Origin: Acidobacteriota bacterium
GTDB taxonomy: Bacteria > Acidobacteriota > Blastocatellia > Chloracidobacteriales > Chloracidobacteriaceae
Length of the DNA: 49,122 bases
NCBI GenBank assembly: GCA_016208495.1
Contig: JACQXX010000015.1
Span: 1-49,122 of the forward strand
Direction: 5' to 3'
Positions 6,418 through 32,340 of this stretch are shown piece after piece. Positions within the stretch are counted from its first letter, which is position 1, and every line of letters starts with the position of its first letter. Below the pieces are notes generated by a model that saw only the letters and a list, made by a program, of their open reading frames with translations, searched no databases and had not been told where the DNA came from. Position numbers and translations under genes: made by a program.

Positions 6418-6570
6418 CCAGACCAGGGCGGAAGAAAGCGGGCTAAGGGCTGAAGACATCGGGCTGAAGAAGGCGGGTTGAAGAATTGGTTTTATCCGAG
6501 GTCATCAGCCCCAAGCCCTAAGCCCTGGTTTTTTCAGCCCCAAGCCCTGAGCCCTAAACCAGGGCTGAAA
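6418..6570. repeat. GGGCTGAAGA-family intergenic element
   Basis: The left part repeats GGGCTGAAGA-like units (6430-6480) and the right part carries the inverted form (TTCAGCCC, with CCAAGCCCTGAGCCC). The last piece, AGGGCTGAAAAC, returns to the left orientation. Relatives occur at 25738-25825, 38882-39040, 39836-39962 and 46603-46765. No gene is seen in it. Confidence 0.8.
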
Positions 6571-6575
6571 ACTTG

Positions 6576-6643
6576 TCAGTGCCACCTGTGTCAGCAGGTG
6601 GTTTTCATTTTTAAATCCCACCCGCTGACGCAGGTGGTACTGA
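6576..6643. repeat. REP-like inverted pair, TCAGTACCACC family
   Basis: A left arm at 6576-6601 and an imperfectly complementary right arm at 6617-6643 are separated by a T-rich loop of 15 bases. The transcript would fold into a strong hairpin ending 22 bases before the fabG start, so it could attenuate or insulate fabG. The same arms form the inverted pair at 30879-30947. Confidence 0.85.
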
Positions 6644-6665
6644 CTTCAATAAGGAATTTGGTGTC

Positions 6666-29704: not shown

Positions 29705-30715
29705 ATGGCCATCAAAGTAGGCATTAACGGATTCGGTCGTATCGGACGCAACGTGCTGCGTACGGTTCTCGGCGACTCAGAGATTGAAATCGTTGCCGTA
29801 AACGATTTGACCGACGCAAAAACGCTGGCGCACTTGCTCAAATACGACTCGATTTTGGGAAATTTGGAAGCCACGGTCACGGCTCCGGCTGAAGACTGTA
29901 TCGAAGTCAACGGACATCCAATCAAAGTCTTCAAAGTGCGCAGTCCGGAAGAACTCGATTGGGAATCGGTCGGTGCGGAAGTTGTGGTCGAATCCACTGG
30001 TTTGTTCACCAAGGGTGAAAAGGCCGCTGGCCACCTGCGTGGACCAGTCAAAAAGGTCATTATCTCGGCACCCGCCAAGGGTGAAGACCTGACCATCGTG
30101 CTCGGCGTGAACGACCATATGTATGATCCGGAAAAACACCGGATTCTGTCCAACGCATCCTGCACTACAAACTGTCTGGCGCCGGTTGCCAAAGTCATTC
30201 ACGAAAATTTTGGGATCGTCAAAGCCTTGATGACGACCATTCACGCCTACACCAACGACCAGCGCATTCTGGATCTGCCACACAGCGACCTGCGCCGCGC
30301 CCGCGCTGCCGCGCTGTCAATGATTCCGACCAAAACCGGTGCGGCCCAGGCCGTGGAACTGGTGATGCCAGAACTCAAAGGCAAATTCGACGGTCTGGCC
30401 GTGCGTGTCCCAACGCCGAACGTGTCAGTGGTTGACGTGACATTTGAAGTTGAGAAATCAACCGATAAGGAAGGCGTCATGAATGCTCTGAAGGCAGCGG
30501 CGGAAGGCCCATTGAAAGGGATTTTGGCCTACACCGAAGAACCGCTGGTTTCCATTGACTTCCGGATGAACCCAAACTCATCCATTGTGGACGGTCCGCT
30601 CACCCGTGTCATCGGCGGCAACATGATCAAAGTGATGTCGTGGTATGACAATGAATGGGGCTATAGCTGCCGTGTCCGTGACCTGATCAAGTTCATGGCC
30701 GCGAAAGGACTGTAG
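29705..30715 (+). CDS. gapA: Glyceraldehyde-3-phosphate dehydrogenase, type I
   Basis: Oxidises and phosphorylates glyceraldehyde-3-phosphate with NAD in glycolysis or the reverse in gluconeogenesis. The 336-residue length is normal. NAD-binding GFGRIGR lies at 9-15 with D34 following the second strand, which suggests NAD rather than NADP preference. The active-site motif [10 protein letters not shown] places the catalytic cysteine at C153. [12 protein letters not shown] near the C-terminus is also typical. AGGAGGG four bases upstream of the ATG is the best ribosome site in the window. Repeats follow directly after the stop. Confidence 0.97.
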
Positions 30716-30719
30716 AAAA

Positions 30720-31177
30720 ACTGACAAGGTGACAAGGTGACAAGGTGATAGGATGACAGGGTGACAGGGTGACAGTGTGACAGGGTGACAAGGTGACAAG
30801 GTGACCCAGTGATCTATGACAAGATGATCCTGCTTCTACCGGATTTTGTGTTGGGGACAAATTAGGAGTGCCAGGAAGTCAGTACCACCCGCGTCAGTGG
30901 GTGGCCAGCCGGCTTCCAATCCCACCTACTCACGCAGGTGGTACTGACAAGTTCTTTATTTTCAACACCGACTTGGCCCAACACAAAATCCGGTAGAAGC
31001 AGAGATGATCTATGACAAGGTGACTAAATATCATCTTGTCACCCTGTCACCCTGTCACCTTGTCACCTTGTCACCCTGTCACCTTGTCACCTTGTCATAG
31101 ATCACTGGGTCACTTTGTCACCTTGTCATAGGTCACTGGGTCACCTTGTCACCTTGTCACCCTGTCATTTGTCACTA
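30720..31177. repeat. Triple-nested inverted element (ACAAGGTG arrays)
   Basis: The 459-base gap between gapA and the TPR gene is one composite. Outermost: octamer arrays of ACAAGGTG (30722-30812) and its inverse (31022-31170). Next: a perfect 26-base inverted repeat at 30830-30855 and 30977-31002. Innermost: a REP-like TCAGTACCACC pair at 30879-30904 and 30921-30947. The arrays read inward with TGA, and the right array edge supplies the TAG stop of the TPR gene (plus-strand CTA at 31175-31177). No gene is seen in it. Confidence 0.92.
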
Positions 31178-32188
31178 TTTCACGCGTTCCAGCGCGGTTT
31201 TGAAATATTCATCCTGCCCGTTCGAAATCTGGTCGCCTTTCTCATACACCGCTCGCGCTTTTTCCGCTTTCCCATCCTTTTCATAAACATAGCCCAATTC
31301 CTTGAGCACATTGGTGTTGTCGGGCAGCAGTTCGCTGGCTCGAATCAGCACCGGTGCGGCTTTGGAAAACTGGTCGCTTCGCGACAAGGCAATGCCGAAG
31401 TTGAATTGAATCAAACCATTATCGGGAGACGCCGTGGCCGCTTTTTCAAGTTCTGGCGCCGCTTTGGCAAATTGTCGGGTGAGCAAATAAAACTGTCCCA
31501 TCAGTGCCGCGCTATCAGCCGAGGCATCCAGCGATTTCAGGCTTTGCAGCGCGGTTTGGGTTTTGGTGAGTTGGGTTTTATCTTCGGGGTTTGCGGCCAG
31601 CCGCTGTAAATGAATACTGGTCAATAGTTTCCAGGAAGCCAGGTCTTTAGGATTAAGTGTTACGGCCTGTGATAGGCTAGCCATGGCTTCAGGCTCGTGT
31701 TTGAGCTGAAAGTGCGTGGCACCGAGCAGGTAATGGCTGGTGGCATCGTTGGGTTTTTGAGAAACGGCGTAGGTCAGTTCCGGAATGGCTTCGTCAAACT
31801 TACCGGCATAAAACAACGCCCGGCTGAGGGCAATCCGGGCGGCGGAATCCTCGCGTTTTTCCTGCTCCAGCGAAAGTTCATTCGCCCGCCGGAGCGAAAC
31901 CACCGCTGGCTCGTACTGCTGTAACTGCAACTGACACAATCCGGCCAGACGATAGGCCGCGCCGTAGTTTGGATATCGTTCGGCGACAAACTGCAATTCG
32001 GTCAGCGCCGCCGCATACTGGTTTTGTTGATACAGGGAAATGCCTTTTTGCATTCGCGCCTGGGCTTCTTCGCTGTTTTGAATGTCCTGGGCCGGAACCG
32101 ACAATGTCGGCAACATCACCGGAACGCTCAGTCCCGCGCTGCCAATCAAGGCCCAGAGAACCGCTGTGTGGATCGTTCGCATGTACAA
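31175..32188 (-). CDS. Exported TPR-repeat protein
   Basis: A 337-residue protein with a signal peptide (hydrophobic 7-30, VMLPTLSVPAQ). From about residue 45 to 330 it consists of TPR units: GISLYQQNQYAAALTELQFVA, AAYRLAGLCQLQLQQYEPAV, SHYLLGATHFQLKHEPEAM and ELGYVYEKDGKAEKARAVY. Likely periplasmic protein-protein contacts; the partner is unknown. GAGGAG about 11 bases upstream supports the start. It follows the kinase/TPR gene at 32316 in the same direction with a repeat element between, so co-transcription is uncertain. Confidence 0.87.
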   Translation of the reverse strand: MYMRTIHTAVLWALIGSAGLSVPVMLPTLSVPAQDIQNSEEAQARMQKGISLYQQNQYAAALTELQFVAERYPNYGAAYRLAGLCQLQLQQYEPAVVSLRRANELSLEQEKREDSAARIALSRALFYAGKFDEAIPELTYAVSQKPNDATSHYLLGATHFQLKHEPEAMASLSQAVTLNPKDLASWKLLTSIHLQRLAANPEDKTQLTKTQTALQSLKSLDASADSAALMGQFYLLTRQFAKAAPELEKAATASPDNGLIQFNFGIALSRSDQFSKAAPVLIRASELLPDNTNVLKELGYVYEKDGKAEKARAVYEKGDQISNGQDEYFKTALERVK

Positions 32189-32210
32189 AATGTCTCCTCA
32201 ACTTATTAAA

Positions 32211-32340
32211 AGCGAAATAGTGAAGTAGCGAAATAGCGAAGTAGTTTAAGATAAAGAGTTTAGGGGTTGACAGAAACCAATCTAATCCGTGACGCTGGGC
32301 TACTTCGCTACTTCGCTACTTCGCTACTTCGCTACTTCGC
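32211..32340. repeat. Inverted octamer-array element (TAGCGAAG family), copy 2
   Basis: The left array is TAGCGAAG-like (32211-32245); the right array is about five exact CTTCGCTA units (32300-32340). The core of about 55 bases shares a TTGACAG-containing stretch with copy 1. The right array encodes the last residues (EVAK) and the stop of the kinase gene to its right. Confidence 0.9.

Follow-up and report, generated by a model that had tools for sequence, protein, structure and literature searches.

How did three different inverted repeats come to lie one inside another in a single intergenic gap? In the window analyzed here, a whole contig of 49,122 bp from a genome of 8.38 Mb in 177 contigs, gapA on the plus strand and a gene coding for a TPR-repeat protein on the minus strand converge on a gap that is filled, from the outside in, by octamer arrays, a 26-bp repeat and a REP-like pair. 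An initial annotation had proposed that these layers arose by serial insertion of one element type into another. Our results make it very probable that the middle layer is a 173-bp MITE, in which a captured REP-like pair is framed by terminal repeats and an end cassette from an insertion sequence (IS) of about 1.4 kb, and that this MITE landed in the gapA-side half of the palindromic octamer arrays, duplicating 8 bp of target. The direct evidence for this reading consists of the ends, the duplication, the family of copies, a REP-free sibling and a parent-type element in a relative. Every layer is a known kind of genomic element; the interest lies in a MITE that carries a REP pair and in the strand rule that the arrays obey.

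Architecture of the gapA-TPR intergenic region

The features of the locus, with a REP-like pair found elsewhere in the window, are as follows.

29705-30715, plus strand: gapA (glyceraldehyde-3-phosphate dehydrogenase; Pfam Gp_dh_N and Gp_dh_C), 3′ end towards the structure
~30722-30829, plus strand: left octamer array of TGACAAGG type, beginning 6 bp past the gapA stop
30822-30829: left copy of the 8-bp target duplication AGATGATC
30830-31002, plus strand: 173-bp MITE, of which complete or truncated REP-bearing versions occupy 27 or more loci of the genome
30830-30855, plus strand: left 26-bp terminal inverted repeat
30878-30904, plus strand: REP-like arm 1, GTCAGTACCACC...GGGTGG
30922-30948, minus strand: REP-like arm 2, inverted
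30949-31002, minus strand: 54-bp end cassette, similar to the right end (upstream of the transposase) of the autonomous element
30949-30965: subterminal box AAGTTCTTTATTTTCAA in the end cassette
30977-31002, minus strand: right 26-bp terminal inverted repeat
31003-31010: right copy of the 8-bp target duplication AGATGATC
31011-31028, plus strand: displaced remnant of the left array, TATGACAAGGTGAC...
~31031-31174, minus strand: right octamer array, CCTTGTCA on the plus strand, abutting the stop of the TPR gene
31175-32188, minus strand: TPR-repeat protein gene (Pfam TPR models), 3′ end towards the structure
6575-6644, plus strand: solitary REP-like inverted pair without MITE ends

The triple nesting described by the initial annotation is real. 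The left TGACAAGG-type and right CCTTGTCA-type arrays, which are indeed the outermost inverted repeat, pair at 91% along stretches of up to 67 nt, the 26-base arms are perfect as claimed, with 100% complementarity, and the REP-like arms pair over 27 nt at 89%. The second occurrence of the REP-like pair, said to lie alone at 6576-6643, was recovered with one extra base on either side. Inverted repeats of 26 bp without mismatch are no rarity, falling in 14 of the 50-bp bins of an 800-kb sample of the source genome and in three in the window, so it is the nesting, the family of copies and the target duplication that carry the evidence, and not the arms alone.

Insertion of a 173-bp MITE into the octamer array

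Searching the source genome with positions 30830-31002 returned whole and partial matches at many places, and an alignment was made of 27 loci with the REP pair or part of it; these are minimum copy numbers, as the best 40 of 148 first-look candidates were scored. Bacterial MITEs are short, non-coding elements with terminal inverted repeats, target duplications, many copies and ends shared with an IS, as the cited sections of PMC3733652 and PMC10969869 describe them. The element at the locus resembles them in each respect: its 173 bp are too short for a transposase, its 26-bp terminal repeats are perfect, its 8-bp duplication is exact, its REP-bearing copies are dispersed over the 27 loci, and it has its ends in common with an autonomous element of 1408 bp in a related genome.

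Copies with both ends are 173 to 178 bp long. We compared the flanks of 14 such elements (13 with the REP pair and one without), a set from which a 985-bp pairing of ends from two adjacent elements had been removed before the count and to which one locus (L011) had been added by hand. Flank identity was 0.68 at a length of 8 and 0.24-0.36 at all other lengths from 2 to 14, and the 76 matches observed out of 112 were reached by none of 10000 random left-right re-pairings. The 8-bp duplication is perfect in four of the 14 elements and at least 7/8 bases agree in seven; the other seven fall below that level, which counts against the insertion reading.

Removing the window MITE together with one copy of AGATGATC leaves a tandem TGATCTATGACAAG repeat; the sequence then continues as TGATCTATGACAAGA-TGATCTATGACAAGG, in the tandem pattern of the array. 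The exact duplication and the tandem repeat thus restored indicate that the 26-base-arm element inserted into the octamer array, in agreement with this part of the initial annotation, and we read the duplication as the trace of transposition. Since ends and duplication are intact, the insertion does not seem to be old. Recurrence of the whole 458-bp composite elsewhere would have made it a single element, as the initial annotation pointed out; no second copy was found among the matches scored, the window itself being the only end-to-end match among 130 in the source genome (best 40 of 436 candidates). An orthologous empty site was not found in SSF51, a related genome introduced below, where the gene downstream of gapA differs. 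Just after gapA in that genome (L108, 2515-2625), another long palindrome with GCAGAG-like repeats was noticed by eye.

The REP-like pair as MITE cargo

The initial annotation also implied that the REP-like pair had entered the 26-base-arm element as a further insertion. According to this explanation, three independent elements arrived serially: an array element, the 26-base-arm element, then the REP pair into the latter. REP pairs do stand alone, at 12 or more core-only places of the source genome (one at a contig end) in addition to 6575-6644, and near-identical arms without REP exist there as well. However, both REP arms are present in 25 of the 27 REP-bearing copies, and in 20 of them the second arm leads directly into the box AAGTYCTTTATTTYCAA (at most 5 mismatches of 17), the remaining seven copies being truncated or diverged at this junction. 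The shared arms and junction suggest that the pair most likely arrived with the element, having been captured once, before the MITE spread. Serial insertion therefore holds for the MITE into the array and fails for the REP pair into the MITE at this locus, and three independent arrivals at the locus are highly improbable. The locus needs two steps, not three: the array, then the REP-loaded MITE.

REP-like arms are widespread. The source genome has 207 at no more than 3 mismatches, single and paired, and 43 of 98 sampled genomes of the class contain such arms; the reversed control pattern gave none in either search. This distribution over the class and the 12 core-only places suggest that the REPs are an older, separate family, the search for the MITE end having covered 10 family genomes. 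As in REPs, the arms form a dispersed inverted doublet that makes a hairpin, and the pair lies within the predicted fold. The tag by which REPs are defined in the cited section of PMC3733652 is GTAG or CGTC; here the arms begin with GTCAGTA. Mobilization by a RAYT was considered and set aside: no REP arm (up to 6 mismatches) was found around any of the nine Y1-transposase hits of the source genome, in stretches of up to 1.5 kb on each side. The MITE offers a route in which IS ends would have spread a REP-like pair to many loci with no need for a REP-specific transposase.

Two published arrangements come close to this one. In Anabaena variabilis (GTAG-15) and Halothiobacillus neapolitanus (CGTC-1), REP dimers lie within a conserved larger palindrome present in many copies, and the cited section of PMC3733652 reports no occurrence of that outer palindrome without REP. 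The multicopy REP dimer inside a larger palindrome is alike, whereas here the outer palindrome consists of IS ends, REP-free versions exist and an 8-bp duplication is present. BrickBuilt, as described in the cited section of PMC4596501, also bears a repeat inside a MITE, but its cargo is a minisatellite, in contrast to the REP-like inverted pair and the unnamed parent IS found here.

Two side observations concern the REP-like arms. At two loci (L157, 10009-10253; L158, 2339-2512) they form head-to-tail clusters with a spacing of mostly 41-44 bases. Beside the solitary pair, at 6440-6575 of the window, inspection by eye revealed an inverted run of AGGGCTGAA-like units and their reverse complement.

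A parent-type insertion sequence in a related genome

When the 21-bp end was searched with up to 3 mismatches in 10 genomes of the family, hits outside the source genome came from two of them, four in G009 and two, with 3 mismatches each, in G008. G009 is the MAG Blastocatellia bacterium isolate SSF51, of the same family and another genus. Two perfect 21-bp ends lie 1408 bp apart in SSF51 (contig JAIBAN010000001.1) and bound an element whose ends match those of the MITE without mismatch, which is flanked by the 8-bp duplication CAACAAGC and nearly filled by an ORF coding for a 417-aa transposase. The 54-bp cassette of the MITE is similar to the transposase-upstream end of this autonomous element (0 of 500 shuffles as good). 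Inside the terminal repeat, the left end of the MITE has no similarity to the parent-type left end (317 of 500 shuffles as good).

No match to this transposase type was found in the source genome. Because the same search found end-of-contig fragments of the transposase in other genomes, a fragment in the source genome would probably have shown. Mobility of the MITE is deduced from the traces that it left. We infer that the REP pair joined an IS-end element once, that the loaded MITE would then have been moved in trans by a transposase of the 417-aa type into the gapA-side half of the arrays, generating the 8-bp duplication, and that the parent-type transposase may since have been lost or may be missing from the assembly.

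Matches to the transposase occur in four of 162 genomes of the class, mostly as short pieces at contig ends. Twelve further homologue loci were scanned (L106, L138-L147 and L149, out of 13 besides the autonomous copy, L148 being left out), and each of the 12 has, next to the C-terminus of the transposase homologue, a MITE-like end that differs at 3-7 of 21 positions; given stray 7-mismatch hits elsewhere in the scanned loci, three of these ends (L142, L144 and L146) rest on their position. An exact 21-bp end adjoins a homologue interrupted by a stop in a Chloroflexota MAG. Homologues with 37-52% identity are carried by five cyanobacterial plasmid records and are called hypothetical proteins in the three that have annotated genes under the match. 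On the Leptolyngbya boryana plasmid pLBY (L165), the homologue corresponds to two hypothetical proteins between MITE-like ends, with GTATGATT on both sides by eye.

Against the IS256 profile NCBIfam NF033543, the transposase scored 29.9 bits (E 2.8e-7), far below the family cut-off of 150, and against Pfam MULE 18 bits for a cut-off of 27.6. Target duplications of IS256 elements are 8-9 bp. The weak profile match and the 8-bp duplication are IS256-like, whereas the distance from the cut-off and the annotation of the plasmid homologues as hypothetical proteins are not. We therefore do not call the transposase an IS256 member and treat it as representing an unnamed family with IS256-like features. 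Residue D331 is invariant in the five aligned transposase sequences, four of which are partial or aberrant at one end, while the other candidate D and C..H motifs appear in the longer sequences only. A structure model was discarded (mean pLDDT of 34). These elements link an unnamed IS family to its MITEs in two genera.

Related elements with other fillings

The initial annotation had suggested looking for the 26-base arms around differently filled cores, and such elements exist. The source genome holds a REP-free element of the same total length, 173 bp (L014, 691-863), with near-identical arms (3 and 4 mismatches of 26) and a similar end cassette. In SSF51, variant arms bound two REP-free elements, one of 84 bp (L104, 1438-1521) with GAATATTT duplicated exactly and one of 161 bp (L164, 1886-2046) with a duplication of 7/8. 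Similar cassettes with different fillers suggest that the MITE amounts to two IS ends between which the filling can be exchanged, the REP pair being one such filling.

The source genome also contains a sister MITE family with CTAATCCCCCCGG ends, a length of 162-165 bp, a similar subterminal box and no REP. Its 8-bp duplications are exact in five of six two-ended copies. Short arrays contain or border four of these six (of which two, by eye, have flanking DNA in common and are not independent), the fifth is 34 bp away from one and the sixth has none nearby. By eye, six of seven sister-family loci (L169, L170, L177, L178, L181, L182 and L183) lie in or beside CAGGGTT repeats. For the REP-bearing MITE, a preference for arrays found no support: of the 14 copies with both ends, one is located in an array of 7- or 8-base units, compared with an array content of 7.6% in the non-ORF DNA of the sample.

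Elsewhere in the window, at 1699-1887, inverted AGTGATT/AGTGGTT heptamer arrays surround a core; by eye, this core contains a sequence that resembles the MITE box, GTTGAAAACAAAGGGATTAT, together with a AAGGGTTGAAA/TTTCAACCCTT repeat further inside.

Strand rule of the outer arrays

The arrays were studied in 1.6 Mb of the source genome (80 stretches of 20 kb, taken by position on long contigs that had come up as search hits, and not a random draw) and in about 0.4 Mb of SSF51 (20 stretches, 16 of them from one contig). The former sample contains 87 octamer arrays and 115 CAGGGTT heptamer arrays of at least 24 bp each. Wherever neighboring arrays on opposite strands lie within 250 bp of each other, the array with its G-rich strand on top comes first (15/15 octamer and 25/25 heptamer pairs). 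For arrays no more than 60 bp from a gene 3′ end, counting only genes whose stop is not inside the array, the sense strand is the G-rich one in 20/24 octamer and 29/32 heptamer cases. Near gene starts the G-rich strand is antisense in 33 of 37 heptamer cases and in two of seven octamer cases, which are few and do not follow the rule. For the heptamer, the rule is therefore better phrased with reference to the gap: regardless of gene direction, the G-rich strand runs inwards from the gene border. The octamer rule was first noticed in 800 kb and then tried on a second 800 kb, where it gave 12 sense cases versus 2 and 9/9 pairs; the count below, made regardless of unit, used both halves. ORFs were called mechanically, and the TGA in octamer units favors sense calls at 3′ ends; the heptamer, which bears its stop on the opposite strand, obeys the same rule, so stop placement is not the explanation, and arm-order counts are independent of ORFs.

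A unit-free detector found 49 inverted array pairs with 17 units in the source sample, the G-rich arm being first in 49/49, and 41 pairs with 11 units in SSF51, with the G-rich arm first in 39. Other detector settings yielded 27-69 pairs with 0-1 exceptions and 22-49 pairs with 0-3 exceptions, respectively. Inverted repeats that are not arrays have no such bias (42 G-first, 37 C-first and 5 ties in the source sample; 11, 8 and 2 in SSF51). For the two genera pooled, 88 of 90 inverted array pairs are G-first, whereas the non-array inverted repeats divide into 53 G-first, 45 C-first and 7 ties.

The array pair at the locus obeys the rule, with the G-rich strand in the sense orientation at the 3′ end of each gene. 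The outer layer is a pair of polar arrays starting at gene 3′ ends, and this palindromic pair between convergent genes would have been the site at which the MITE arrived. A foldback-type mobile element, of which the arrays would be the inverted ends, could account for the near-constant arm order in the pairs of both genera. Yet the unit sequence and the arm length vary freely, single arrays are common, and the arms follow gene borders (20:4 on the 3′ side for the octamer and 29:3 for the heptamer), which makes a foldback element unlikely.

Comparable arrays have been reported in Xanthomonas and Nostoc, where, in the cited section of PMC4692102, G-rich heptamer repeats are intergenic, sense near stop codons, antisense upstream of ORFs, under-represented between divergent genes and generally not associated with mobile elements; the GGGAATC repeats of Xanthomonas form convergent inverted pairs, 70 in Xcc and 75 in Xac. 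The arrays described here are likewise short, G-rich, sense at stops and paired in convergent orientation, but here a single genome has many units of 7-9 bases, the octamer included, that follow the rule, and one of the arrays contains a MITE. The unit at the locus, TGACAAGG, has eight bases, and GGG is found in some units only, unlike a seven-base unit with GGG tracts. Our data extend the published Xanthomonas rule to many units within a single genome and to another bacterial group, the phylum Acidobacteriota. As a generalization that we hold only tentatively, one G-first rule might apply to the intergenic palindromes of this bacterial family, with any unit and from the gene borders inwards, and reflect a strand-specific process, for which transcription-linked repeat growth, R-loops and quadruplexes are candidates, that builds hundreds of such structures per genome by extrapolation; some DDE-type MITEs would land there, and a sister family of these would also spread the REP pair without a REP-specific transposase. 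The rule makes the origin of such palindromes testable by strain comparison.

Folding and possible function

Octamer arrays with both neighboring genes called are commoner in convergent gaps (25 of 78, versus 147 of 824 neighboring ORF pairs) and rare in divergent ones (4 of 78, versus 133 of 824). The folding check suggested by the initial annotation gave -272.8 kcal/mol for the RNA of the 475-nt stretch 30716-31190 (z = -22, 0 of 100 shuffles as good), and -103.6 (z = -12) for the MITE with its duplications. If transcribed, the composite would fold as a very stable hairpin. The fold, the position between convergent genes and the frequency of octamer arrays in convergent gaps are what would be expected if the whole palindrome were a single regulatory hairpin, a bidirectional terminator or 3′ stabilizer, grown in place by duplication of its arms. 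The middle 173 bp are nevertheless a dispersed repeat with target duplications of its own, which refutes an in-place origin for this layer, and we found no U-tract site resembling an intrinsic terminator in 30600-31300, which counts against a role in termination. Growth in place is accordingly highly improbable, and insertion of the REP-loaded MITE into a preexisting array pair is the reading that we retain. Guessing from position and fold, the composite could plausibly act as a two-way transcription barrier or 3′-end protector between gapA and the TPR gene.

Comparison with RNA families returned two microRNA hits below the cut-off (E of 2e-4 and 0.41), which we took as chance hits to hairpins. 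At 32207-32340, in the interval that separates the TPR gene from the kinase gene following it, the window has another inverted array, of GCGAAGTA type, which gave a sub-cut-off Rfam match to a microRNA family, probably by chance on a hairpin.
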